Shown: piece by piece, positions 12,562 through 55,214 of the stretch
Layout of the letters: each line of letters opens with the position of its first letter
Position numbering within the stretch: position 1 is the first letter of the stretch
From: a virus
Strand: one strand, 5' to 3'
DNA: 64,000 nucleotides
Virus record (IMG/VR): IMGVR_UViG_3300030102_008735
Coordinates: 17,422-81,421 of that record
Made by a program: the position numbers and the translations under genes
The notes under the pieces: model-generated
Databases searched by the model: none
What the model was told of the DNA's origin: nothing
Seen by the model: only the letters and a program-made list of their open reading frames with translations

Positions 12562-14502
<1,941 letters not shown>

Positions 14503-14503
<1 letters not shown>

Positions 14504-16561: not shown

Positions 16562-18022
16562 ATGGATATAAAATTACCAAAATTAAAAAAGATTAATCTC
16601 AACAAAGTAAAAAAGAAAAAGATACTTTTAATGTCAGATGACATGAGGGTACATAGCGGTATAGGAACAATGTCAAAAGAATGTGTAATTGGTACTGTAC
16701 ATAAATATGACTGGGTACAATTGGCAGGTGCAATAAAACATCCAGAGGAAGGAAAGGTTATTGATATGTCAGCTGATGTTGCAAAACTATCAGGAGTTGA
16801 TGATGCATCAGTTAAACTATACCCAATAACAGGATATGGAAGTTCCGATATCTTACGCCAAATAATTGATCTTGAAAAACCAGATGCAATACTACATTTT
16901 ACAGATCCAAGATTTTGGGGATGGTTATATAATATGGAACATGAAGTAAGACAACAAATTCCAATAATGTATTACAACATCTGGGATGATCTCCCATACC
17001 CACATTGGAATGAAAATTTTTATGAATCATGCGATTTACTTATGGCAATATCAAAACAAACATATAACATTAATGCAAATGTTTGTCAAAGAAAGCCTAG
17101 GACAGATTGGGACTTAACATATGTACCTCATGGAATAGATGAAAAATCGTACTTTCCAATAACTCAAGATCATAAAAATTATGAAGATTATATAAAATTT
17201 AAAAATCATTCACTCAATAATAAGGAATATGATTTTATTTTAATGTACAATAGTAGAAACATTAGAAGAAAAAGTACCTCAGATTTAATGTTAGCATTTA
17301 GATTATTTTGTGATAGCATTCCTAAAGAAAAGGCAGATAAATGTGTAATTATACTACACACAGATCCTGTTGATGATGCAGGTACTGATTTACCAGCCGT
17401 ATCTAAAAACATAATGAATGGTCACAATGTTATATTTTCAAATAAAAAACTTGATAGCAAGCACTTAAACTATTTATATAATATGGCAGATCTAGGATGT
17501 AATATTAGTTCAGCCGAAGGGTTTGGATTAAGCTGTATGGAATCAATAATGTCAGGAACTCCAGTGTTAGTCAACTGCATAGGAGGTTTACAGGACCAAC
17601 TAGGACTAACAAAGGACGATGGTACACCTGTTACATTAGAAGATTATAACACTAAGTGGCCAAGTAATAGTGATGGAAAATATAAAAATCATGGCGAATG
17701 GTCGTATGTTGTATGGCCTCAACATAATCTTCAAGGTTCTCCAATGACACCATACATTTATGATTCAAATTGTAACATTAGAGATGTGGCATTACAAATA
17801 AAAAAGGCATATGAAAATAGAGATAAGTTAAAAAAGCAAGGTTTAGTTGGTAGGGAATGGGCAATTGAGAATGGATTCACTGCAAAAGGAATGTGTGATT
17901 CAATGATTAAATCTATTGAAGGTTGCTTTGAAAATTGGAAACCTAGAAAAAGATTTACATTAATTGATACTAATGAACCTAAACCGATATACCCAGATGG
18001 TATAATATTGGAGGAGATATAA
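16562..18022 (+). CDS. GT-B glycosyltransferase (GT4-like)
   Basis: The 486-residue protein opens with a Lys-rich tail, then KILLMSDDMRVHSGIGTMSKE, a GT-B N-terminal start with a glycine turn. The C-terminal donor domain includes ILMYNSRNIRRKSTSDLMLAF and SSAEGFGLSCMESIMSGTPVLV, with the ExFGxxxxE nucleotide-sugar signature. It is a retaining-type glycosyltransferase opening a long glycan locus; donor and acceptor are unknown. Confidence 0.85.
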   Translation: MDIKLPKLKKINLNKVKKKKILLMSDDMRVHSGIGTMSKECVIGTVHKYDWVQLAGAIKHPEEGKVIDMSADVAKLSGVDDASVKLYPITGYGSSDILRQIIDLEKPDAILHFTDPRFWGWLYNMEHEVRQQIPIMYYNIWDDLPYPHWNENFYESCDLLMAISKQTYNINANVCQRKPRTDWDLTYVPHGIDEKSYFPITQDHKNYEDYIKFKNHSLNNKEYDFILMYNSRNIRRKSTSDLMLAFRLFCDSIPKEKADKCVIILHTDPVDDAGTDLPAVSKNIMNGHNVIFSNKKLDSKHLNYLYNMADLGCNISSAEGFGLSCMESIMSGTPVLVNCIGGLQDQLGLTKDDGTPVTLEDYNTKWPSNSDGKYKNHGEWSYVVWPQHNLQGSPMTPYIYDSNCNIRDVALQIKKAYENRDKLKKQGLVGREWAIENGFTAKGMCDSMIKSIEGCFENWKPRKRFTLIDTNEPKPIYPDGIILEEI

Positions 18023-39627: not shown

Positions 39628-40863
39628 ATGAAAAAATCCCAACTAAGAAAACTGATAAAGTCTACAATCTCCGAAGTTTTATCAGAAGCAAGAATCAAAA
39701 AAGGAAGTATTGTAATTGCCAAAACAGGTGTACACAAAGGTGATAAACATGAAGTAATACATGATTTTGGAAATGGAAAATTCAATGTTACACCTCTTTC
39801 ATTTAGAAACAAATATCGTATGGGAGCTGCCGGTGCAGATGCTAAGGACTTAATACTTGTTAAAGAAACTAGAGAACAGGTACTTAATGAAAGGTTTGCG
39901 TCACGATTAGTACAAGACATGTTTAATAAAATGACTAGGTCTAGGGGATTTGGTAGTAGAGGAGACAAAAAGTTTTTTAATGCAGCATCAAAAGCGTATG
40001 GTATTGAATGGGATAAATTATCTGATGACGCAATATCAGGTCCTACTGCAAGGATGAAAAGACAAGGCCTTGAGTTTATACTATCAAAGACAAATCAAAC
40101 AGTAAAAGGTACTGGGAAGTATGATTATGAACGTGCTATTCAAGCAGGACAATTATTAGGTGTTGCAATGAATGGTAAAGCAGTATACTTTGGAAAGAGT
40201 GGATTGAAAACTGGTGCACCTAGTAGCCGTGATTTTCCTGAATATGTAGGACTTAATGTAATGGGATTTAAAAATGCAGATAGCATTATCAAAAGACTTA
40301 GTCCTAATGTTGAAGTATACCAAGTAGACATTAGTAAAGCTGGTGGTGCTAAGGAAAAACAACAAGCTAGGAAAGATGCAAGAAGAGGAGCAACTGCACT
40401 TCTGGACTTTAATACAATTAAAAGAGAAAACCAAGCAAGATATGAAAAGGCACTAAGAGATAGGTTGGCAAATTCAAGTCCTGTTGATCAGGCCTATAAA
40501 ATGGTTGAGGCCACTCAAAAAATGGCAGTTGCAGTTTCAAATAAAGATATTGAAATGTTGAAAAAAGGAATGGTCAGGGATAGTTGGTCTAGTAGAGGTG
40601 GTCAAATCAATAATGCATACAATCAAATGTTTACATCAATGCAAAGATTACTAAGTTTTGAAAATCAAGCAATCAAGGCAGCCGATAAAGATAAGGCAAT
40701 GAAATTGAAAAATGGTGAAAAACCTGCATGGAGTGAAGAAAAGTATTATTTAGATCAAATGATATCCGAGGCACGTAATATACAAAGAGTGTTTAAGGAA
40801 CTAAAAGCTGATTTATCTAAACTTAGCAAAGATAAAGACTATGTATCAATAAATCCAAGATAG
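39628..40863 (+). CDS. Large tagged protein, probable capsid internal protein
   Basis: The 411-residue protein begins with an amphipathic tag (LRKLIKSTISEVLSEA, residues 6-21) that is repeated in variant form on later proteins. It is followed by a KOW-like segment (KKGSIVIAKTGVHKGDKHEV) and a VLNE site at 85-88. The rest is rich in Lys, Arg and Ala with helix-like charges. By analogy with T4 internal proteins, tag and LNE could be prohead-protease sites. No enzymatic motif is sure. Confidence 0.6.
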   Translation: MKKSQLRKLIKSTISEVLSEARIKKGSIVIAKTGVHKGDKHEVIHDFGNGKFNVTPLSFRNKYRMGAAGADAKDLILVKETREQVLNERFASRLVQDMFNKMTRSRGFGSRGDKKFFNAASKAYGIEWDKLSDDAISGPTARMKRQGLEFILSKTNQTVKGTGKYDYERAIQAGQLLGVAMNGKAVYFGKSGLKTGAPSSRDFPEYVGLNVMGFKNADSIIKRLSPNVEVYQVDISKAGGAKEKQQARKDARRGATALLDFNTIKRENQARYEKALRDRLANSSPVDQAYKMVEATQKMAVAVSNKDIEMLKKGMVRDSWSSRGGQINNAYNQMFTSMQRLLSFENQAIKAADKDKAMKLKNGEKPAWSEEKYYLDQMISEARNIQRVFKELKADLSKLSKDKDYVSINPR

Positions 40864-40872
40864 GAGATCCAA

Positions 40873-41172
40873 ATGAAACTAAAAAAATTAATCAATGAAC
40901 ATCATATTTTAGGAGATCTTCCATCATCAAAATTGAAAAAAATGAAGTGGAATCCAGTAACTGAAGAAGAAAAACTAGATGAAGCTCCAATGGATAAATC
41001 ATTTGCAAAAGATTTTGAAAAAAGTACAAATGCATTTATTAATCACGTTCAATCAGAAATGAAAAATTCAGATAGTGGAGCCGACAGATTGGTGTTTAAA
41101 AAAATGTTACAAAATCTTCGAACAGTACAAGGCTACCCACAATTAATGACAAGATTGGTAGGAAGTAAATAA
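40873..41172 (+). CDS. Small tagged protein (capsid-targeting-like N-terminus)
   Basis: A 99-residue charged helical protein starting MKLKKLINEH, one of ten starts in the window with M-[IK]-x-L-K-x-I-x-x-E. The segment EEEKLDEAPMDKSFAKDFE contains a further LDE. If capsid-targeted, it may be processed and packaged. It overlaps the next gene by one base. Confidence 0.55.
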   Translation: MKLKKLINEHHILGDLPSSKLKKMKWNPVTEEEKLDEAPMDKSFAKDFEKSTNAFINHVQSEMKNSDSGADRLVFKKMLQNLRTVQGYPQLMTRLVGSK

Positions 41173-42164: not shown

Positions 42165-42527
42165 ATGAAAATGAAAAACATACTTAGTGAAAAAGGCAAA
42201 GGACTTTGGCATAATATTCATGCAAAGAAAAAACGTGGTGAAAAATCAGATCCTAGATCTAAATCATATAAGGCAGCAGTAAAAGCAGGCGAGAAAATAA
42301 GAAGAAGTGAAACAACTAAGGACGGGGTTAATGTACCTGCACCACCAAATGTAACAGGACTTTTAAATGCCAACATGGATGAATTACTTATGGATATTAA
42401 TGATCCTAAAACATTAAAAGAATTAGCAAAAAAACTTTATGAAAAATTAGTTTTCTATAGGGACAAACAGAAGAGAATCAGAAGATTTGATACTGAAAAG
42501 AGTAAAAACGATAAATTAAGGAAGTAG
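42165..42527 (+). CDS. Tagged small basic protein
   Basis: The 120-residue protein starts MKMKNILSEK, another example of the shared N-terminal tag. A GLWHNIHAKKKRGEKSDP segment resembles a small phage domain (DUF6321 is my best recollection), followed by two helices with LMDINDPKTLKELAKKLYE. It may be a packaged internal protein. It follows the nuclease gene by 6 bases. Confidence 0.55.
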   Translation: MKMKNILSEKGKGLWHNIHAKKKRGEKSDPRSKSYKAAVKAGEKIRRSETTKDGVNVPAPPNVTGLLNANMDELLMDINDPKTLKELAKKLYEKLVFYRDKQKRIRRFDTEKSKNDKLRK

Positions 42528-42559: not shown

Positions 42560-42712
42560 ATGAAAGTTAATTGGATAAATGGCTTTGATGCCGGAAACAA
42601 AAAAGAGAAGTACTATCTTGAATTTAGAGTTGGTACTTTTACTATTTTAGAAATAAAATGGGAAAAATCTAGATTTAGATTTATGTTATTAAATATGGGA
42701 TTTGAAATATGA
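42560..42712 (+). CDS. Small unknown protein
   Basis: A 50-residue ORF after a strong AAAGGGGAAAATGTT ribosome site. Its TGA overlaps the ATG of the giant secreted protein (ATGA). The sequence has hydrophobic strands (YYLEFRVGTFTILEIKW, FRFMLLNMGF) and no signal peptide. It may be translated together with the following gene. Confidence 0.5.
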   Translation: MKVNWINGFDAGNKKEKYYLEFRVGTFTILEIKWEKSRFRFMLLNMGFEI

Positions 42713-45700
42713 AAAAATTTCTGTTCAGTTTATTGTTGTTACCACTGTTTGTAATTTCACAAGACACAATTGTTGATCCACCATCTTATGGGTCAATTAT
42801 GGAACCAGTCACTTTTAGATTGGATCTGAACGATATCACAGATGAGATACCTAATTATGAAGATGCACAAGTATTTATACAAACTAGTGTTGCAAATTGG
42901 GTTGACATACCAATGGAGGATATTGGAGGAAATGGTATATGGAGAAAGAATATTAATATTAGTCATCCGGAAGATGAAAACATAGATGTATTTTATAGAT
43001 TTAAGATAACATCTTTTGGTGATAATGGTTTACCATATACAATGTGGGAAGGAGGTAATGTAGATACTACTTGCCTTTTTGATCCCGGTACTCAAGGTTT
43101 AGCACAAGGTGATATAAGACAGATACTATTTCCGCAAGAGTTAATTGATAATGGTACTTATGTTAATCCAACAGGTGAATATAAATTAACACATTGCTTT
43201 AATGAATGTGGTAATGAACCATGCGCACCAGAAGTAATAATATATGATTCTTGGATCAATATAGATGTTCATACGGATGATTGGCCTGAAGAAACAACAT
43301 GGGAATTAGTAGATTCAAACGAAAATGTAATAGCAGAAGGTGGCCCATACGATTTAGATCAAACTTTATATAGTGAAATAGTAGAATTAAATTCGGGAGA
43401 ATATTATTATTTCTTATTTGATTCTTATGGTGATGGTTTATGGACAGGTGGGTATGTTGAAATAACAAATACATGTGATAGCGTATTATTTTTTCATGAA
43501 GGATCATTTACCGGAAATACAATTGAAGAAATAGAAAATGGTGCAGAGTGGGAACAAAATGAATTAATAGAATCATTAACAATTGCACCATGCGCTCCAC
43601 CAACATTAGGCTGTACAGATGAAATAGCAATCAATTTTAATGAAGAAGCATATGAAGACGACGGAACATGTGAATATTTAGAAGGATGTACAAATGAAAA
43701 TGCATCTAACTATGATCCAGAGGCGGCAGTATTTCCATCAGGACTAATTTTTCCAGGAGGTAGTTGTAATACCACTGTGTGGGGACAAAACTATTTTGGT
43801 GTAGATCCTGATTTTTATTTTAATGGAAACCAAGATATATTTGAAGTTGGTAATAAATTATACATAGGTGAAAATACTTTCTATGTAGATTTTGTTGCAG
43901 AGGTTCAAGGTAACTGTAATGCTCCAGCAGTATTAATTTATGTATGTTATACAGAGGCAGAAGCTGATGGAAACTTAGGAACATTTTCACCAGGACTAAA
44001 TGTTAATGCTGTAGTAGGTGAATATTGGTATATGGACCCATGTACATTTATTTATGGTTGTACAGATCCAAATGCATTAAACTTCAATCCTGAAGCAGGG
44101 GTTAATGACGGTTCTTGTATCAATATACCAGGTTGTACAGATCCAACATCTAATATGTACAATCCAGCAGCAACTATAGATGATGGTTCATGTGATGGAA
44201 CCGACATATCTTGTTCTCCAGGAAAGACGGTAGTAACAGTAGAAATAACATTAGATCAATATCAAGAAGAAACTGGCTGGGCAATTTATGACGGAGGAGG
44301 AACTGTATTGGATTTAGTTGCACCAGGAACATATAGTGATATTCCTGATTATGGTATTGTTGAAAAACAAGTTTGTATTGATAATGGAACATCAGTTTTA
44401 TTTAGTATAACAGATACTTATGGTGATGGTTTAGCTGGTTCAATATGGGGTGGTGTAGATGGATCTTGGATAGTATATACTCCTTGTGATACACTTTCAA
44501 CTGGTGGTGGTAATTTTGGTCCTATATTTCAAGAAAACATATTTGTTCAAGAATGTATTGATGAAGTAATACCAGGATGTACAGATTCTGATTATGTGGA
44601 ATATGATGTTTATGCTACAGAGGACGATGGAACTTGCTTAAATTTAAATGTTTATGGCTGTACAGATACTGATGCATATAATTACGATGAAGAAGCAACT
44701 TCAACACTATTTACTCCAAATTGTGATAATACATTAACATTGCAAGATTGGGGTGATAATGGCTGGGCTGGATCTTTCCTAGTAGTAACACAAGGTGATG
44801 ATTGGTGGGGACCATTTACATTGGAGTCAGACCAATTACAATTAGACACAGTTTTAAATTTAAATACATCTGAAATGGTAAACACTTATTTTTACTCCTT
44901 TGGAAATTCTCAACAAACGGCAGAACAATGTAGATTTACAATAACAAATCCAGTAGGATTGGTAATAGCAAACGGAGGAACAAATCCATATACAAATCCA
45001 ATACTATCTTACAATCAATATGGATTTATATACAAGGCAGAAGCTAAGTGTGGTGATAGTTGCATACCAAAAATTTATGGATGTTTAGATGAAGAGGCTA
45101 TTAATTATATAGCAACAGCAAATACAACTGATGGCTCATGTTATTACAATCCAGGTTGTGATAATGAAGCATATACTGAATATTATACTTACATAGATGA
45201 ATATGGAGTAGAAGCCGACTTTAATGATGGTTCATGCGAAGAGTTTGCAGTATTTGGATGTATGGATGATACACAATTTAATTTTGATTATAATGCAACA
45301 GTTAATGCAACAGCAATAGGGGATCCTACAGATCCATGTATACCTTACATATTAGGATGTACAGATGGAACTGCATTTAATTATGATCCAAATGCTAATT
45401 TTGATTTTGATGGATTGATTTGTGAACCGTTCATTTATGGATGTACTGATGAACTAGCATTTAATTACGATTCATCCGCTAACTCAGATAATGATTCTTG
45501 TATTCCAGTAGTTTATGGTTGTACTGAAGATGATGCCTTTAATTATGATATAGAAGCAAATGTAGATGATGAATCATGTATACCAGTAATAGAAGGATGT
45601 ACACAAACAAATCAATTTAATTATGATCCAGAAGCCAATACAGACGATGGTTCGTGTTATCCATTTGTTTATGGTTGTTTAAATCCTAATTCATATACCT

Positions 45701-47646
45701 ATAATGATTATGATAATGATGGTGTAGGAAATCCACTAACAGGAATAGATGGTGTAGATGTAAACACAAATAATAATTTATGTGAACCATTTATATACGG
45801 TTGTTTGGATGAAACAGCATTTAACTATAACCCTGAAGCAAATACAGAAGATGAAAACAATCCATGTGAGCCATTTGTTTATGGCTGTATGGATCCTACA
45901 CAATTTAACTTTAACATCAATGCAAATACGGATGATGGTTCATGTATTGAATATGTATATGGATGTACAGATCCAGAAGCATTTAATTATGATGAGTTAG
46001 CAAATACAAATGTTGGCTGTGTATCATTTGTTTATGGCTGCACAGATCCTGAAGCTTTTAATTACAATCCTCAAGCCAATACAGAAGATGGTAGTTGTGA
46101 AGAAGTAGTAATAGGATGTACAGATGATACAGCCAATAATTATAATGAACTAGCAAACACTAACTCAGGCTGCATATATCCATCATTAGGATGTACAGAT
46201 CCAGAAGCATTCAATTTTGACATCAATGCAAATGTTGATGATGGTAGTTGTGAAGAAGTAATAATTGGCTGCACCGACAATACTGCATTAAATTATGATG
46301 ACTTGGCGAATACTAATAGTGGATGCATTTATCCTATTTTAGGCTGTACAGATCTTGAAGCATTTAATTTTAATGTTAATGCAAATACAGATGACGGAAG
46401 TTGTGTTCCAGTTATAATTGGTTGTACTGATTCTACTGCTAATAATTATGATGAAACAGCAAATACTAATAGTGGATGTATTTATCCAGTACTTGGTTGT
46501 ACTGACCCCAATGCATTTAATTATGATGTTAATGCCAATGTAGATGATGATAGCTGTGAGCCAGTAATTATTGGTTGTACAGACGACACAGCTCTTAACT
46601 ATAACTCTTCTGCAAACACAAATTCAGGATGTACTTATGCAATATATGGATGTACAGATCCAAATGCATTTAACTATGATGTTAATGCAAATGTTAATAA
46701 TGGTTCATGTATAGATGTTGTAATTGGATGTACAGATTCAACCGCATTAAATTACAATTCAAATGCCAATACTAATAACGGTTGTATATATCCTATTTTA
46801 GGTTGTACGGATGAAGAAGCATTTAACTATAACTCAAATGCCAATACAGATGACGGAAGTTGTATTCCTCTTATATATGGATGTACAGATAATACAATGT
46901 GGAATTACAATGAAGAAGCAAATACTGAGAATGGTTCTTGTATAGAATTCGTTTATGGCTGTATGGATTCAACAGCATTTAATTATGATCCAACAGCCAA
47001 TACTGATAATGGAACTTGTATTCCATTTATTTATGGTTGTACAGATCCTAGTGCGTTTAACTATAATGTAGATGCAAACACTGAAGACTTTTCGTGTATT
47101 GAAGTTGTGATAGGTTGTACTGACCCAGATGCAATTAATTATGATCCACTGGCAAATACAGATTCAGGAGCTTGTATAGATGTATTAACAGGATGTACTG
47201 ACGTTGATGCATATAATTATAGTTTCACAGCAAATACAGACGACGGAAGTTGTGTTTATGATGCAGGATGTAGTGGAGGACCTGGTGTTCCATATTGGTT
47301 ACCTAATGAATGTTTTGCATGGGTAATATCAGTAGACGATGAATGTTGTGATGGAGAATGGGATTCATTCTGTGTTGAATTATATAATTACTGTGATTTA
47401 GGATGGCCTATAGATTTACAGGAAATAAATAGGGAATTATTAATATATCCAAACCCAGTTACAAATATGTTAACTATTTCTGGATATTATGATTCTAATG
47501 TTGATATTTATGATATGAAAGGACAACTAGTAATATCAAAGGAAAAAGCAAACAGCATAGATATGTCAAGATTACCAGCCGGCATATATAATTTAAAAGT
47601 TTTATATAACAATAAGATAATTAATCAAAGGATAACAAAACAATGA
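42709..47646 (+). CDS. Giant secreted Cys-repeat protein with T9SS sorting tail
   Basis: The 1645-residue protein starts with a signal peptide (KKFLFSLLLLPLFVISQ). After a 300-residue mixed beta-rich domain come about 33 imperfect repeats of 25 residues with GCTD-x-x-A-x-NY-x-x-x-ANxDDGSC, and a final Cys-rich block (ECCDGEWDSFC). It ends in a type IX sorting domain of about 70 residues (YPNP at 1580-1583, GQLVISKEK, LPAGIYNLKVLYN), the Por-type C-terminal signal of Bacteroidota. It should be exported to the cell surface or medium. The presence in a phage is unusual; a role in the cell-surface change or adhesion is inferred. Confidence 0.85.
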   Translation: MKKFLFSLLLLPLFVISQDTIVDPPSYGSIMEPVTFRLDLNDITDEIPNYEDAQVFIQTSVANWVDIPMEDIGGNGIWRKNINISHPEDENIDVFYRFKITSFGDNGLPYTMWEGGNVDTTCLFDPGTQGLAQGDIRQILFPQELIDNGTYVNPTGEYKLTHCFNECGNEPCAPEVIIYDSWINIDVHTDDWPEETTWELVDSNENVIAEGGPYDLDQTLYSEIVELNSGEYYYFLFDSYGDGLWTGGYVEITNTCDSVLFFHEGSFTGNTIEEIENGAEWEQNELIESLTIAPCAPPTLGCTDEIAINFNEEAYEDDGTCEYLEGCTNENASNYDPEAAVFPSGLIFPGGSCNTTVWGQNYFGVDPDFYFNGNQDIFEVGNKLYIGENTFYVDFVAEVQGNCNAPAVLIYVCYTEAEADGNLGTFSPGLNVNAVVGEYWYMDPCTFIYGCTDPNALNFNPEAGVNDGSCINIPGCTDPTSNMYNPAATIDDGSCDGTDISCSPGKTVVTVEITLDQYQEETGWAIYDGGGTVLDLVAPGTYSDIPDYGIVEKQVCIDNGTSVLFSITDTYGDGLAGSIWGGVDGSWIVYTPCDTLSTGGGNFGPIFQENIFVQECIDEVIPGCTDSDYVEYDVYATEDDGTCLNLNVYGCTDTDAYNYDEEATSTLFTPNCDNTLTLQDWGDNGWAGSFLVVTQGDDWWGPFTLESDQLQLDTVLNLNTSEMVNTYFYSFGNSQQTAEQCRFTITNPVGLVIANGGTNPYTNPILSYNQYGFIYKAEAKCGDSCIPKIYGCLDEEAINYIATANTTDGSCYYNPGCDNEAYTEYYTYIDEYGVEADFNDGSCEEFAVFGCMDDTQFNFDYNATVNATAIGDPTDPCIPYILGCTDGTAFNYDPNANFDFDGLICEPFIYGCTDELAFNYDSSANSDNDSCIPVVYGCTEDDAFNYDIEANVDDESCIPVIEGCTQTNQFNYDPEANTDDGSCYPFVYGCLNPNSYTYNDYDNDGVGNPLTGIDGVDVNTNNNLCEPFIYGCLDETAFNYNPEANTEDENNPCEPFVYGCMDPTQFNFNINANTDDGSCIEYVYGCTDPEAFNYDELANTNVGCVSFVYGCTDPEAFNYNPQANTEDGSCEEVVIGCTDDTANNYNELANTNSGCIYPSLGCTDPEAFNFDINANVDDGSCEEVIIGCTDNTALNYDDLANTNSGCIYPILGCTDLEAFNFNVNANTDDGSCVPVIIGCTDSTANNYDETANTNSGCIYPVLGCTDPNAFNYDVNANVDDDSCEPVIIGCTDDTALNYNSSANTNSGCTYAIYGCTDPNAFNYDVNANVNNGSCIDVVIGCTDSTALNYNSNANTNNGCIYPILGCTDEEAFNYNSNANTDDGSCIPLIYGCTDNTMWNYNEEANTENGSCIEFVYGCMDSTAFNYDPTANTDNGTCIPFIYGCTDPSAFNYNVDANTEDFSCIEVVIGCTDPDAINYDPLANTDSGACIDVLTGCTDVDAYNYSFTANTDDGSCVYDAGCSGGPGVPYWLPNECFAWVISVDDECCDGEWDSFCVELYNYCDLGWPIDLQEINRELLIYPNPVTNMLTISGYYDSNVDIYDMKGQLVISKEKANSIDMSRLPAGIYNLKVLYNNKIINQRITKQ
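43609..47265 (+). repeat. 33 imperfect 25-residue Cys repeats
   Basis: Coding repeats within the giant protein, each about 75 bases, with a GCTD...NYD...AN.DDGSC core. From 46036 to 46800 they alternate strictly between a DGSC..VVI type and an NSGCIYP type, suggesting a two-repeat unit (about 153 bases) duplicated several times. DNA identity is low between units, so the array is old or under drift. Confidence 0.8.
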
Positions 47647-50338: not shown

Positions 50339-50983
50339 ATGAAATCATTAATGAACATATTAAATATGGATAAAATTGTGTACACTCAGAATGTATTACC
50401 TAAACATGAAAAGAAATTAAAAAGTCATGGTGGTATGTTTGAGGATTTTGACATATTTCAATTTAAAGCACTACCTCCACCAAATAATAGTTCATTAAAA
50501 ACAAAACAAGAAATAAGATACATACAAAACATTCCAAAAAATGAAAAGGTAATTTTGGCAACTGATGACATAACAAAATACTTTGGTGACTACATCAATG
50601 ATATAGGTTATACATTTCCAGAGGATAAGATTGAAAACATCCTTCAGGATTCATCTAAAGTGATATTGAAACTCAAATATCATCATAATAGGCCTAGGCC
50701 AAAACAAATGGCAGATATACTTGGAATGGATTTAGATACAACATATACGGACACAATGGAAACTCCATCATACCCTAGTGGCCACTCTACGCAAGGAATA
50801 TTAGTTGCACTTATTCTTAGTGACCAATATCCTGAATTAAGAACAACATTAATGGATATGGGAAAAAAAGTATCATTTGCAAGACTTTCGGCAAAGGCAC
50901 ACTATCCAAGTGATTCAAATTTTGGAGAAGAATTAGGAATTGCATTGTATAAACATTATGTAAAAGATAGGAGCAAAAAGTGA
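50339..50983 (+). CDS. PAP2-superfamily phosphatase
   Basis: The 214-residue protein has the three PAP2 motifs: K-x-x-x-x-x-R118-P119 (KYHHNRPRP), PSGH at 146-149 and R182-x5-H188-x3-D192 (ARLSAKAHYPSD). These form the vanadium-haloperoxidase-like active site. Signal and clear transmembrane segments are absent, so it is a soluble phosphatase; a nucleotide or lipid substrate is possible. The first 110 residues are unique. Confidence 0.85.
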   Translation: MKSLMNILNMDKIVYTQNVLPKHEKKLKSHGGMFEDFDIFQFKALPPPNNSSLKTKQEIRYIQNIPKNEKVILATDDITKYFGDYINDIGYTFPEDKIENILQDSSKVILKLKYHHNRPRPKQMADILGMDLDTTYTDTMETPSYPSGHSTQGILVALILSDQYPELRTTLMDMGKKVSFARLSAKAHYPSDSNFGEELGIALYKHYVKDRSKK

Positions 50984-51870
50984 AACTAAAAGTATTCAAA
51001 AAATTATTAAGAAACGAAATAATTAATGTATTGAAAGAAAATGCTGTTCCTGATCATGATGGTAAATCTGCCCCATTTGGTTCTGGGTATAAAAAAATGA
51101 ATGAACTTGATGACAATGAAGGGCAAATGGCTAAAGCACAACTTGAACGTTCAATGGAATATTCAAAAATGATATACGATTTTATGATTGATTTTGGTGG
51201 TGACTCTGATAAGTTACAGTTTCCTGCATGGGTTCAGTCAAAGTTAACAAAGTCAATGGACTATTTACAAAGTGTATACAATTATTTAGATGGCAAGGAT
51301 GGATTGGCAGATGATCCATCAGCATTAAGAAAGAAACAGGAATCTCATGTATATGGTCATGATGATGAAGATAGTGAATTAAATGAAGCTAGTTTTGCTG
51401 GTGATGTATCATCAATTAGAAAGGGTCTCAGATTATTCAAAATAGATTCTCCTAAAACATATAAAATATTAGATAGAAAATTCAAACTAACTAAGATATT
51501 AAATGTCCTTAATAAGTTGCAAGATTATATGGATGATGTCGAAGATGGAAAGATAAAACTTGGTGAAAGCAAATTAAATGAAGATGTATTCAAATCATTT
51601 TTAAGAGATGACCCAGCATTCAAATTATATACTGCAAAAAATACTGATAACCGAAAAAGTGTAATGGCTAGAAAAACTGACAGGACTTTTGATGATGGAG
51701 TGCCAGTACTAAAATTTATTGCAAGAGCACCAAAAAAACCTGCACCTTTGCCAAAAGGTTCATTTAAGATTATAGAAGACAATAAACATGGTTGGTGGTA
51801 TTACCAAGTTGGTAGTACATGGTATGGTATAAGACAAAAAGATTATGGAACACCACCATTTGAATATTAA
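50980..51870 (+). CDS. Tagged protein with internal LNE sites
   Basis: The 296-residue protein starts at a GTG overlapping the preceding stop, with an amphipathic tag (VFKKLLRNEIINVLKENA) like that on the 39628 protein. LNE occurs at 134-136 (SELNEASF) and 199-201 (SKLNEDVF). The C-terminal part (GSFKIIEDNKHGWWYYQVGSTWYG) looks like a small SH3-type domain. The layout suggests a precursor cleaved by a prohead protease. Confidence 0.6.
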   Translation: MKLKVFKKLLRNEIINVLKENAVPDHDGKSAPFGSGYKKMNELDDNEGQMAKAQLERSMEYSKMIYDFMIDFGGDSDKLQFPAWVQSKLTKSMDYLQSVYNYLDGKDGLADDPSALRKKQESHVYGHDDEDSELNEASFAGDVSSIRKGLRLFKIDSPKTYKILDRKFKLTKILNVLNKLQDYMDDVEDGKIKLGESKLNEDVFKSFLRDDPAFKLYTAKNTDNRKSVMARKTDRTFDDGVPVLKFIARAPKKPAPLPKGSFKIIEDNKHGWWYYQVGSTWYGIRQKDYGTPPFEY

Positions 51871-51890: not shown

Positions 51891-52520
51891 ATGCCATATA
51901 CAATTAGAAAACAGAAATGTAAGCAAGCTGATGGTGACTCTGGAAGTTATGTTCTTTCATATACTTCTAAAAAAGGTAAAAAATATAATAACTGTCACAC
52001 TTCTAAAAAAGGAGCTCAAGACCAGATTGCTGCAATAGAAGGACCTAGAGAAATGGCTGAAAATTTTAAAGAACTATTAAAGAAAGAAGTTAAAAAAGCA
52101 ATTGCTGAAATCGCTTCAGATGAAAGTAAAGTAAAACATAATAGACATTTAGATGAAGAACTACTAGTTCGTAATGAAGACCGTGAATGTTTTATTGAAT
52201 ACATAAAGGAAACATGTAGACCTGAAAATATCCAAGAAGCCGAATATCAAGGAAGACAGGTTAAATTAAATAAAGTAACTAGGACTACCGGTGATAAGAA
52301 ATTTCAGGTATATGTTAAAGATCCAAAAACAAAGAATATTAAAAAGATATCATTTGGTGATGGAACAGGTCTTAGTATTAAAACAAAAGATCCAGATAGA
52401 AGAAGAAACTTTAGAGCAAGACACAATTGTGACACTCCTGGACCTAAAACAAAAGCAAGATACTGGTCATGTAGAATGTGGTCAGGACCAGATGCTGTTA
52501 AGAATATGTTAAAGAAATGA
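51891..52520 (+). CDS. Virion-type protein with Cys-rich ends
   Basis: The 209-residue protein starts with a beta-hairpin segment (YTIRKQKCKQADGDSGSYVLSY) followed by NCHTSKKGAQDQIAAIEG. Residues about 54-70 (MAENFKELLKKEVKKAIAEI) resemble the tag of its neighbours but lie inside the chain. The end (FRARHNCDTPGPKTKARYW) is a motif I associate with T4-like phage structural or hypothetical proteins. Function unknown. Confidence 0.55.
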   Translation: MPYTIRKQKCKQADGDSGSYVLSYTSKKGKKYNNCHTSKKGAQDQIAAIEGPREMAENFKELLKKEVKKAIAEIASDESKVKHNRHLDEELLVRNEDRECFIEYIKETCRPENIQEAEYQGRQVKLNKVTRTTGDKKFQVYVKDPKTKNIKKISFGDGTGLSIKTKDPDRRRNFRARHNCDTPGPKTKARYWSCRMWSGPDAVKNMLKK

Positions 52521-52810
52521 TAAAACTAAAAAACATAATAGAAATGAATAGGATTGGTAATTTTACCTGGTCCGGACATATTGAAAGGGGAAGATCATTA
52601 GATAATACTGTTGGTGGTCAACCTGCTGGAAAATCGGTTCCTAGACGTGTTGCTGAAGATGACTATGCAGGAACACCAGCTGGTATATCCCTTAAGAATG
52701 AATTTGTTGGTGCAATATCTTTAGGCTTACTTATTAAATTTTTAGTAAGATACTTAAAAAGAAATCCTCAACATATGAATAAAATAAAATCATTTGTAAA
52801 AAAACTATAA
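52517..52810 (+). CDS. Tagged small protein
   Basis: This 97-residue protein begins MIKLKNIIEMN, another shared-tag start. A Gly/Arg-rich middle (WSGHIERGRSLDN and QPAGKSVPRRVAEDDYAG) precedes a hydrophobic helix (FVGAISLGLLIKFLVRYLKR), which might anchor in a membrane or bind the capsid interior. It overlaps the previous stop by 4 bases. Confidence 0.55.
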   Translation: MIKLKNIIEMNRIGNFTWSGHIERGRSLDNTVGGQPAGKSVPRRVAEDDYAGTPAGISLKNEFVGAISLGLLIKFLVRYLKRNPQHMNKIKSFVKKL

Positions 52811-52821
52811 GTGGAATAATT

Positions 52822-53721
52822 ATGATAAATTTAAAAAACATAGCAGAAGAAAGTAATTTAATTCCTAAAGACACAGGACCTATATTTGGATATCTCAATG
52901 AAATATCTACAAAGCAAGGATTAGAAGATGTAATGAAAGGAAGAACTACTTCTATTGAAGGTATTAAAGTATCAAAGGACTTAGCCCAAGGTTTAATGAG
53001 TTTTATTAATATGTCACCTTATGGTAGAAAATATGGTAAACAAATAATGAAAGGTCGTTTTGCTTCATTAATTCGTCCAGCAAATGCATTTGGAGTTGAA
53101 CGATATCTATCACCAAAAGCCAAAAAGGAATTTAAAACAATATTTAAAAATATGAAATCTTCTAATGAAATAAAGGAAGAAAAGAAAGATATCTTACTTG
53201 GAAAAAAGAAAGGGCCAGCTGGAGCAGATCCAAAAAAGACTCCAGGATATTACAAAGGACTTTCTAAAAAAGATAAAGAGGAAAGGTCTAGGGTGATAAA
53301 AAGAAGAACAGCAATGGACGATGATGATCCAGATGCATATAAAGCATTTAGAAGCGATAAAGGTGTAAAGACAAAACCATCGGTTCATACAAATAAATTT
53401 AAAAAAATGTTTGGTGAACAAAAGTGGAATACTTTAAGAGAAGTATTTAGAATGTCAAAAGGTCTAAATGAAATGAGTGCAGCTGTAAAAAAAGCACTAA
53501 AAACAAAAGCTGAAAAATCAGGAATGCCATTTGGAGTACTTAAGCAAGTATTTAATAGAGGAATGGCTGCATGGAAAACAGGACATAGGCCTGGGGCAAG
53601 TCAACAACAATGGGGATATGCAAGAGTAAATAGTTTTGCAACAAAAAGTCCAGGAACTTGGGGTAAAGCAGATAAAGATTTAGCTAAAAAAGTTAGAGAT
53701 AGGAAGAAGAAAAAGAAATGA
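52822..53721 (+). CDS. Tagged protein with DUF5872- and DUF5824-like domains
   Basis: The 299-residue protein begins MINLKNIAEE (tag) and has YLNEIS at 24-29. A middle segment (YKGLSKKDKEERSRVIKRRTA) resembles DUF5872, and the end (AWKTGHRPGASQQQWGYARV) resembles DUF5824, both recalled from phage and viral proteins. LNE at 215-217 (GLNEMSAAV) precedes the last domain. This arrangement is like a polyprotein with domains separated by cleavage sites. Confidence 0.65.
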   Translation: MINLKNIAEESNLIPKDTGPIFGYLNEISTKQGLEDVMKGRTTSIEGIKVSKDLAQGLMSFINMSPYGRKYGKQIMKGRFASLIRPANAFGVERYLSPKAKKEFKTIFKNMKSSNEIKEEKKDILLGKKKGPAGADPKKTPGYYKGLSKKDKEERSRVIKRRTAMDDDDPDAYKAFRSDKGVKTKPSVHTNKFKKMFGEQKWNTLREVFRMSKGLNEMSAAVKKALKTKAEKSGMPFGVLKQVFNRGMAAWKTGHRPGASQQQWGYARVNSFATKSPGTWGKADKDLAKKVRDRKKKKK

Positions 53722-53969
53722 TAAAATTAACAGATATATTGATCCAGGTATGTAATGAAGATGTTAGAAAAGTTGGCAATAAATTTTGTGCATATGTAGA
53801 TGATAAACTAACTAAGGCTGAAAAAGAAAACAATCCTAAAAAATATAAAGGTAAAAAGATTGGAAGTATCCAAAGAACTAAATCTGGTAAACCTAGAATG
53901 AAAGCACGTGCATGTTACCAGTCAAGAAAAAAGGCCAATAATGCAATGGCAGCTGCAATGATGGGATAG
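53718..53969 (+). CDS. Tagged small basic protein
   Basis: The 83-residue protein starts MIKLTDILIQVC, a weak version of the tag without the final Glu. It is basic (KKYKGKKIGSIQRTKSGKPRMKARACYQSRKKANN). It overlaps the preceding gene by 4 bases. It may bind DNA inside the capsid. Confidence 0.5.
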   Translation: MIKLTDILIQVCNEDVRKVGNKFCAYVDDKLTKAEKENNPKKYKGKKIGSIQRTKSGKPRMKARACYQSRKKANNAMAAAMMG

Positions 53970-53973
53970 AAAA

Positions 53974-54246
53974 ATGATTAAATTAAAAACCATATTGGAA
54001 AAATTTGATAGTAAAGCTCAGCAGAGGTTTCTATATGCAACAGATCCTAAAGCCGCAAAAGAAAAAGGCGAAAAAATGACCAAAAAGGATTATGAAGAAT
54101 TACCAGATAAAGTAAATGAAATTAGCCCAGGCCCTTTTGGAATAACAATGGCTATAGGAGTAATATTGAAAGCACTATTAAAGTGGTATCAACAAGCAAA
54201 CTCGTCTGATAAGAAAAAACTAAAAAAGTTTGTGGATGATCTGTGA
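53974..54246 (+). CDS. Tagged small protein
   Basis: This 90-residue protein begins MIKLKTILEKF (tag). Next is a SKAQQRFLYATDPKAAKEKG segment typical of small phage proteins, a KVNEIS site at 46-51, and a C-terminal hydrophobic helix (FGITMAIGVILKALLKWYQQA). The end overlaps the next GTG by 4 bases. Confidence 0.55.
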   Translation: MIKLKTILEKFDSKAQQRFLYATDPKAAKEKGEKMTKKDYEELPDKVNEISPGPFGITMAIGVILKALLKWYQQANSSDKKKLKKFVDDL

Positions 54247-55214
54247 TTAATCTAAAAGACATATTACCTGAAGCAGAAAAAAGGACCCCAAGAAAAAAAG
54301 GCCAAAAGAAGAAAAGTAGTAAACATTCTGATTTATTTACTGATGAAGATCCTAAAGGTACAATTCATGGACTAGGATTTAAAGATGCCAAAACGGCGAG
54401 TGCCGGTGTTGCTAAAATCAATAAGGCCAAACGAACTCATGCACATAAAGTTCAGGCAACATTGGTAATGAAACAACGTGCAAAAGTTGCAAAAGAAAGA
54501 ACAAAGGATCCAGAAAAGAAAAAAGATCTAAATGCAGCCTTTAGAGTATGGTCAGCACATTTAGAAAAACTTAAAGCAAAGACTAAAAAAATGAATGAAA
54601 TGAGTGCAACGGCAAAAAAGCATGGTAAGTTTGGTTTAACAAATGTACCGTTTCCTACAGAAGAACCTAATGAATTTGCATATATGGATTTTGTGAATTA
54701 CATCAAAAAAAATGAAAAGAAAATGATTAAATTTCTTAAACCAATTAGACCTGATGCAATGTTTAAAGCTTTAGAAAATATATGGTCAGGATGGGATAGA
54801 AAAACTAACCAAGGAGCTTTTTCAAATATTCGAGGCAATAAGTTTGGTAGAAAACTAGTTTTAATGCTAAGAAATGATGGTTTATTATTTAATAAGGACA
54901 GTAATAAGATAACAAACCTTAAGGAGAAAAGTATGAAATTAAAAAAAATAGCAGAAGCATCAAATGTCTGGAAAATATTTGATATGAAACAAAAGTTACA
55001 AGGTGATATCATAGATCTTGAAATGGATATGAAAATGATCAATAAAGATTTAAGCCAACTTCATAAGGATATGGAACAGGAAGCTGAACCGGAAGGTGGT
55101 CCTAAAGCCACTATGTATGGTAGAGAGATTGAAAAGAAAGAAAAAGAATATAAAAAGAAAAAAATGGAATTCAAAAAACTTATGGCTAAATTAGATAGAT
55201 TAGAGATGTTTTAA
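54243..55214 (+). CDS. Tagged protein; second tagged start nested in frame
   Basis: The 323-residue frame begins at GTG with INLKDILPEAE (tag). Its first part is basic (KKGQKKKSSKHSDLF) with GFKDAKTASAGVAKINKAKR and a helical domain, then MNEMSA at 117-122. At residue 231 (base 54933) a second tag, MKLKKIAEAS, appears, preceded by AAGGAGAAAAGT, a strong ribosome site. The final 93 residues are a coiled coil (KKEKEYKKKKMEFKKLMAKLDRLEMF). This looks like two tagged genes joined in frame or a nested start. Confidence 0.6.
   Translation: MINLKDILPEAEKRTPRKKGQKKKSSKHSDLFTDEDPKGTIHGLGFKDAKTASAGVAKINKAKRTHAHKVQATLVMKQRAKVAKERTKDPEKKKDLNAAFRVWSAHLEKLKAKTKKMNEMSATAKKHGKFGLTNVPFPTEEPNEFAYMDFVNYIKKNEKKMIKFLKPIRPDAMFKALENIWSGWDRKTNQGAFSNIRGNKFGRKLVLMLRNDGLLFNKDSNKITNLKEKSMKLKKIAEASNVWKIFDMKQKLQGDIIDLEMDMKMINKDLSQLHKDMEQEAEPEGGPKATMYGREIEKKEKEYKKKKMEFKKLMAKLDRLEMF
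54933..55214 (+). CDS. Possible nested tagged protein (in-frame internal start)
   Basis: An ATG at 54933, in the frame of the larger ORF, has AAGGAG at 54921-54926 and would give a 93-residue protein starting MKLKKIAEAS. It shares the tag with nine other starts, while no conserved domain crosses the junction. It may be made as a separate short product as well as the C-terminal part of the long one. Confidence 0.5.
   Translation: MKLKKIAEASNVWKIFDMKQKLQGDIIDLEMDMKMINKDLSQLHKDMEQEAEPEGGPKATMYGREIEKKEKEYKKKKMEFKKLMAKLDRLEMF

Follow-up and report, generated by a model that had tools for sequence, protein, structure and literature searches.

The internal proteins IPI, IPII and IPIII of phage T4 and its Alt protein carry a capsid-targeting sequence (CTS) and are processed by the prohead protease gp21 (PMC9026906, PMC3012670). 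The cleavage motif of this protease is L/I-X-E, with the cut after the Glu, and the 10 N-terminal residues of IPIII are enough for targeting to the head (PMC9026906). The T4 core proteins gp22, gp67 and gp68 each undergo several gp21 cuts after the same motif (PMC9026906). In phages and conjugative elements, the so-called polyvalent proteins form many-domain mosaics that are predicted to travel with the DNA and that were likened by their authors to viral polyproteins (PMC5512222). The NMNAT of cyanophage S-SCSM1 was found in virions (PMC9602691).

The locus analysed here is located in a 64,000-nucleotide stretch of viral DNA, referred to as the window, and centres on a frame of 323 residues. 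In its best reading, which we consider likely, this frame codes for a head-cargo polyprotein of a T4-like phage that would be cut by the prohead protease, and a probable internal start would also yield its last module, referred to as module C.

The phage and its likely host

The window belongs to the 81-kb viral record G000. It contains a long run of glycosyltransferase-, sugar-nucleotide- and epimerase-like genes (18026-38096, + strand) whose extent is unusual for a T4-like phage. A secreted-type protein of 1,645 residues with many GCTDxxAxNYxxxANxxxGSC repeats, also unusual for a phage, is encoded at 42709-47646 (+ strand). Its C-terminus is a Por_Secre_tail sorting domain (type IX secretion), which is typical of Bacteroidota. 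GroES-like and GroEL-like genes are found at 12562-14503 (+ strand), and such genes are annotated at a similar place in the isolated Flavobacterium phage immuto, in which the core of module C also occurs. The Por_Secre_tail protein, the GroES and GroEL genes as in immuto and the module C core in immuto together make a Bacteroidota host likely.

A cluster of tagged genes

Many genes of the cluster begin with a short tag that resembles the N-terminus of the 323-residue frame. The cluster genes and their neighbours are the following:

39628-40863, + strand: tagged gene (MKKSQLRKLIKSTISEVLSEA) whose body has a homologue in the protease-capsid operon
40873-41172, + strand: tagged gene (MKLKKLINE)
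42165-42527, + strand: tagged gene (MKMKNILSE)
50980-51870, + strand: tagged gene, LNEA and VLKEN-type sites in its interior
51891-52520, + strand: mosaic cluster gene, no clear tag
52517-52810, + strand: tagged gene (MIKLKNIIE)
52822-53721, + strand: tagged mosaic gene (MINLKNIAE), DUF5824 in the C-terminal part
53718-53969, + strand: weak-tag gene (MIKLTDILIQ, expected Glu absent)
53974-54246, + strand: tagged gene (MIKLKTILEK), directly upstream of the 323-residue frame and overlapping it

The products are rich in basic residues, with a Lys and Arg content of 17-28% against 12.8% across all genes. The initial annotation had judged its readings consistent with a growing tandem family. The cluster does share the tag and exchangeable modules, but the bodies of its proteins are mostly unrelated. 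A gene in the protease-capsid operon of three relatives (G001, G004 and G007), located between a tagged gene and the capsid gene, is similar to residues 77-408 of the 39628-40863 product, which is possibly a paralogue of a head protein. In relatives, the same tag is also carried by a zeta-toxin-like kinase (L164:11579-12283), a NUDIX protein (L161:15979-16491) and a protein whose FDFDDTL motif is HAD-like (L184:16076-16603), and these tagged enzymes may be injected.

Organization of the 323-residue frame

The frame starts with a GTG codon, and the sequence GTGA at this point overlaps the stop codon of the preceding tagged gene (53974-54246). Its parts are arranged as follows:

54243-55214, + strand: long frame of 323 residues, GTG start, comprising tag, module A, module B, second tag and module C
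54243-54272, + strand: N-terminal tag MINLKDILPE, CTS-like, with a predicted cut after Glu10, similar to tags elsewhere in the cluster and in relatives
54273-54599, + strand: module A, residues 11-119, second half mostly helical, widespread in marine phages (AlphaFold2 mean pLDDT 78)
54600-54926, + strand: module B, residues 120-228, with a C-terminal LKE, found in relatives G007, G010, G002, G001 and G004 with differing neighbours
54921-54926, + strand: AAGGAG, possible ribosome-binding site doubling as the Lys-Glu codons of LKE (AAAGAA or AAGGAA in relatives)
54927-54956, + strand: 30-nt cassette KSMKLKKIAE, i.e. spacer, internal ATG 54933 and second tag, missing from the direct B-C fusion of G007
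54957-55211, + strand: module C, residues 239-323, helical hairpin, predicted mature product of 85 residues

The ATG at 54933 is residue 231 of the 323-residue frame and is separated from AAGGAG (54921-54926) by the spacer AAAAGT (54927-54932). From there on the frame has 93 residues, beginning MKLKKIAEAS. The position of this nested tag, its first residues, the AAGGAG and the 6-base spacer had all been given in the initial annotation and proved right on checking the sequence.

The 93-residue form of module C was modelled confidently by AlphaFold2 as a helical hairpin (mean pLDDT 90.6). This model had no fold match at an E of 0.001 or better in a search of a viral library, and neither had the model of module A in a search of the PDB. 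Weak matches to MIT domains and other helical bundles were set aside. The 323-residue frame had no match in Pfam or PHROG, both of which were searched with ten cluster genes.

Shuffling of the modules among relatives

Module A is found in many marine phage contigs and also in cyanophages and a pelagiphage. It terminates at a stop codon in several phages and is fused to other proteins in others; in G001 it forms a stand-alone tagged gene of 110 residues (tag MIKLKHLLEE). In Synechococcus phage Bellamy, the hypothetical protein gp123 (618 residues, L138:3989-5845) combines module A with DUF192 and DUF6321, and its gene is located between the small and large terminase genes. Module B is present in few phages with varying downstream partners, and was not seen alone among the relatives compared. 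The first module of the cluster gene 51891-52520 sits after module B in G002 and G010. Module C lies inside longer frames in 75 of the 78 scorable relatives. In G012, it constitutes a stand-alone gene of 93 residues beginning MKLKRILE/TSSAWK (here and below, the slash marks the position after the Glu of the motif). The nested frame and this gene align end to end without gaps, tag included, with 58% identity over 93 of 93 residues. At least one relative thus has the tag at the N-terminus of a gene product, in keeping with the view of the initial annotation that the nested part is a tagged gene. The modules are thus shuffled across relatives, A (in G001) and C (in G012) also existing as separate tagged genes, and long frames of shuffled modules with protease-type sites at their borders are the usual state of the family.

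Modules B and C are joined directly in G007 and G004, with neither internal ATG nor tag. Relative to G007, exactly 30 nucleotides are added in frame in the window, AAAAGTATGAAATTAAAAAAAATAGCAGAA, between the Glu of LKE and the first Ala of module C. This difference was read by codon-level comparison, as the gaps were ill placed in a MAFFT alignment of the DNA. A tag cassette that was gained or lost would explain it no less well than the loss of a stop codon. The latter event, i.e. the disappearance of a stop between two tagged genes, had been put forward in the initial annotation. It was not borne out, as none of the relatives compared has neighbouring modules B and C with an intervening stop; the direct B-C fusions and the predominance of module C inside longer frames also speak against it.

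Predicted cut sites at the module borders

The borders were studied in 70 proteins collected by homology to the cluster genes of the window, the motif not being used in their selection. The motif [ILV]xE is located within 5 residues of 43% of the left and 42% of the right borders of shared segments, against 17% at random positions in the same 70 proteins (sd 3%, maximum 26%). No border enrichment was observed for seven control motifs in which D, K, N, S, G, A or Q replaced E. The borders, defined with BLAST, depend in part on one another, so that what carries the argument is the difference from the control motifs rather than a formal P value. Ala most often follows the Glu of the border sites, and [ILV]xE directly precedes module C in 14 of its 14 full-length copies.

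Against this, [IL]xE is a short motif that charged proteins often contain, and more than half of the module borders have no [ILV]xE within five residues. Two sites of the 323-residue frame are also atypical, MNE having Met in the first position and LKE being followed by Lys, which is not the favoured residue. On balance, we consider cutting of the chain between its modules quite probable.

The tag and head assembly

The tag looks like a T4-type capsid-targeting sequence, i.e. a short N-terminal peptide ending with (I/L)xE, the site of the gp21 prohead protease. A short peptide ending with (L/I)xE is present at both candidate starts of the frame (MINLKDILPE at 54243 and MKLKKIAE at 54933). A protease of the S77 (gp21) type was found above the curated cut-off in 6 of the 14 records searched, the remainder consisting mostly of fragments, and the positive records include relatives carrying module C. 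The protease and Gp23 were not seen in the window's own record, which is incomplete. The S77 proteases of G001, G004 and G007 retain the conserved His- and Ser-containing motifs, and the gene abutting the protease carries the same tag in each of these genomes (MKLRNLLKE, MKLKRILKE and MKLKQILHE, respectively). A small immuto gene adjoining the protease gene of that phage matches a part of the tagged gene 16735-17058 of G007. The tagged gene beside the protease was considered as the gp22 scaffold and rejected for this role, since the position and composition of an acidic gene immediately preceding the capsid gene agree better with gp22. Gp23-type capsid proteins are encoded by the longer relatives and contain LITE/A, LISE/A, LIDE/N or LVTE/N, which by analogy would be the position where gp23 is cut.

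A further connection is provided by cyanophages. The virion NMNAT of S-SCSM1 begins with MKSFLQFLKE/AAE and its S-SM1 homologue with MKKFSAFLNE/AE, and L020 and L028 contain fusions of module A with NMNAT-related enzymes. The cargo set gave no homology match at E 1e-3 with the S-SCSM1 and S-SM1 stretches, so the link with cyanophages relies on the tag, the NMNAT family and the module A fusion, not on shared modules B or C. Targeting of the 323-residue chain to the head is considered very probable.

A probable internal start at 54933

In the window, a Shine-Dalgarno match of at least 5 nt is found upstream of 22 of the 85 chosen gene starts and of 49 of the 1,738 ATGs inside genes; Shine-Dalgarno-like sites are therefore used moderately by the phage. 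The ATG at 54933 is the sole in-frame ATG of the window genes that is preceded by AAGGAG. In six related genomes, a tag-like sequence follows only 2 of 4,462 internal in-frame methionines, for comparison with 3 to 8 gene starts per genome. One of these two methionines is that at 54933 and the other lies inside the window gene 2174-2641, with no AGGAG-type motif just upstream. As GAG represents 12% of the Glu codons and AAG 24% of the Lys codons, AAGGAG is expected for about 3% of Lys-Glu pairs, and the same Lys-Glu is written AAAGAA or AAGGAA in relatives, unlike in the window. The RNA at 54933 is fully open (MFE 0.0 kcal/mol), as it is at only 11% of the gene starts and 1.5% of the internal ATGs. 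The anatomy of an internal start is complete, with ribosome-binding site, spacer, start codon and open RNA, as the initial annotation had suggested from the first three, and this nested start signal goes beyond chance, with the caution that AAGGAG also encodes the Lys-Glu of the LKE motif closing module B.

The exact junction pattern was searched in all viral contigs and was found in one other contig only. This contig is 99% identical to the window and its start and tag show no difference at all, so that conservation of the nested junction says little. A pattern scan of related loci revealed no convincing further nested tag, with two weaker candidates in L084 and L142. The second tag and the tag of 52822-53721 have a local alignment score of 18, unrelated gene starts reaching at most 14; this is suggestive of a copy of the latter tag, an origin that is not claimed here. 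The odds that the internal start is in use appear somewhat better than even.

Proposed mechanism and alternative explanations

From the features described above, we infer translation from either start, cleavage, packaging and delivery. The 323-residue chain would be translated from the GTG at 54243, in coupling with the preceding tagged gene. MINLKDILPE would act like the capsid-targeting sequence of the T4 internal proteins and bring the chain into the prohead core, where a gp21/S77-type protease would cut after (I/L/M)xE at ILPE/A, MNE/M, LKE/K and IAE/A. Modules A, B and C would in this way be freed inside the head and delivered with the DNA. The ATG at 54933, with its AAGGAG and open RNA, would probably also allow module C to be made alone with its own targeting tag. 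Because the cut at IAE/A would give an identical mature module C of 85 residues from the chain and from the internal start, the effect of the nested start would be a higher dose of module C, with no new protein created. The initial annotation had considered that two products may come from one frame. This is probable, but the route is likely mainly proteolysis, since the tag ends with a prohead-protease-type site and such borders are usual in the family; internal initiation is a probable second route.

The start features could alternatively be the relic of an older stand-alone tagged gene. Only the long chain would then be made, the second tag region would now be just a linker with a protease site and module C would be cut from the chain. 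Such a relic would account for the 75 of 78 scorable relatives in which module C has no start of its own, and would agree with the moderate use of Shine-Dalgarno sites by the phage and with the coding role of AAGGAG in LKE. That an AAGGAG unlike the codons of relatives, a 6-nt spacer, an ATG and open RNA are all intact together argues against it, and we regard it as rather unlikely. The nested junction might also be an artefact, a real stop codon between two tagged genes having been lost by sequencing or assembly error in a metagenome assembly whose junction occurs in just two contigs. This is hardly credible given that the second, 99% identical record has the same junction without difference and that B and C are fused directly in two other phages.

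Two other explanations concern the products rather than the start. If [ILV]xE were merely a linker flavour, the long frame would be a normal multi-domain protein whose modules stay fused and which loses no more than its N-terminal tag, as the T4 internal proteins do (PMC9026906); cleavage of the present chain is, after all, predicted from sequence. The Glu-specific enrichment exactly at the borders, absent with other residues, the 14 of 14 copies of module C bordered by [ILV]xE and the cutting of T4 core proteins into several pieces by gp21 render this improbable. Still more doubtful is the idea that the tag is unrelated to heads, being instead a common 5' element for translation or regulation or a different sorting signal, and resembles a CTS by accident. 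The tag is indeed short and rich in Lys and Leu, and targeting is putative. Nevertheless, a tagged gene abuts the prohead protease in three genomes, the motif is present at the protein level at inner borders too, and modules are common to the cluster genes and to genes of the protease-capsid region. The preferred reading thus remains that of a head-cargo polyprotein with a probable second start for module C.

Comparison with known systems

T4 is already known to have internal proteins with a CTS and core proteins that are cut at several sites, and injected multi-domain proteins are known as polyvalent proteins (PMC5512222). A cargo polyprotein with prohead-protease sites at its borders and an inner tag and start was not found described in the literature, of which coverage was partial, and its novelty is therefore provisional. 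In its general form, the model states that marine T4-like phages of Bacteroidota string small interchangeable modules in any order behind one head tag, have them cut within the prohead by its protease and dose one module through an internal tag and start, a generalization to which we give an even chance. If it is true, many 'hypothetical proteins' of marine T4-like phages would share a role as head-packed cargo delivered with the DNA, and their mature products would be predictable by in silico cutting after [IL]xE. The packaging principle of T4, one tag for one protein, would extend to polyproteins, with a hint at how these phages could put together further sets of injected proteins from existing modules. 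A tag doubling as an internal cut site would make the joining of modules neutral for the end product.

The cluster resembles the T4 internal proteins in its N-terminal tag of about 10 residues ending with (I/L)xE, in the occurrence of this common tag on several small, unrelated, lysine-rich proteins and in the presence of an S77 protease in relatives. It differs from them in having several modules per frame with predicted sites at the borders, and a second tag with a possible start inside a frame. Several cuts after L/I-X-E per polypeptide are a feature of the T4 core proteins gp22, gp67 and gp68; the T4 pieces mostly exit the head, whereas the pieces of the present chain are modules that recur among phages and are encoded by separate tagged genes too. 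The mosaic of domains predicted to travel with the DNA recalls the polyvalent proteins. In contrast with their large enzyme domains and often embedded peptidase (PMC5512222), the modules are small here and the prohead protease is separate; no polyvalent domain or embedded peptidase was found in the 323-residue frame with Pfam and PHROG.

The S-SCSM1-type NMNAT/cytidylyltransferase (PMC9602691) is comparable by its virion location, its MKSFLQFLKE/A-type tag and its relatives fused to module A, but it is an enzyme of phages with a cyanobacterial host and lacks modules B and C. A counterpart from an isolated phage is gp079 of Flavobacterium phage immuto (NC_055915; L191:10708-13233), a protein of 841 residues that contains the module C core and whose genome has an annotated prohead core protein serine protease and Gp23. 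The same gp079 also has a DPVGKEDxDINNDG module that resembles part of the protease-adjacent tagged gene of relatives and the virion protein 92 of S-SCSM1. Unlike in the window, module C is internal in gp079, without start or tag, and the model is testable in this isolated phage.
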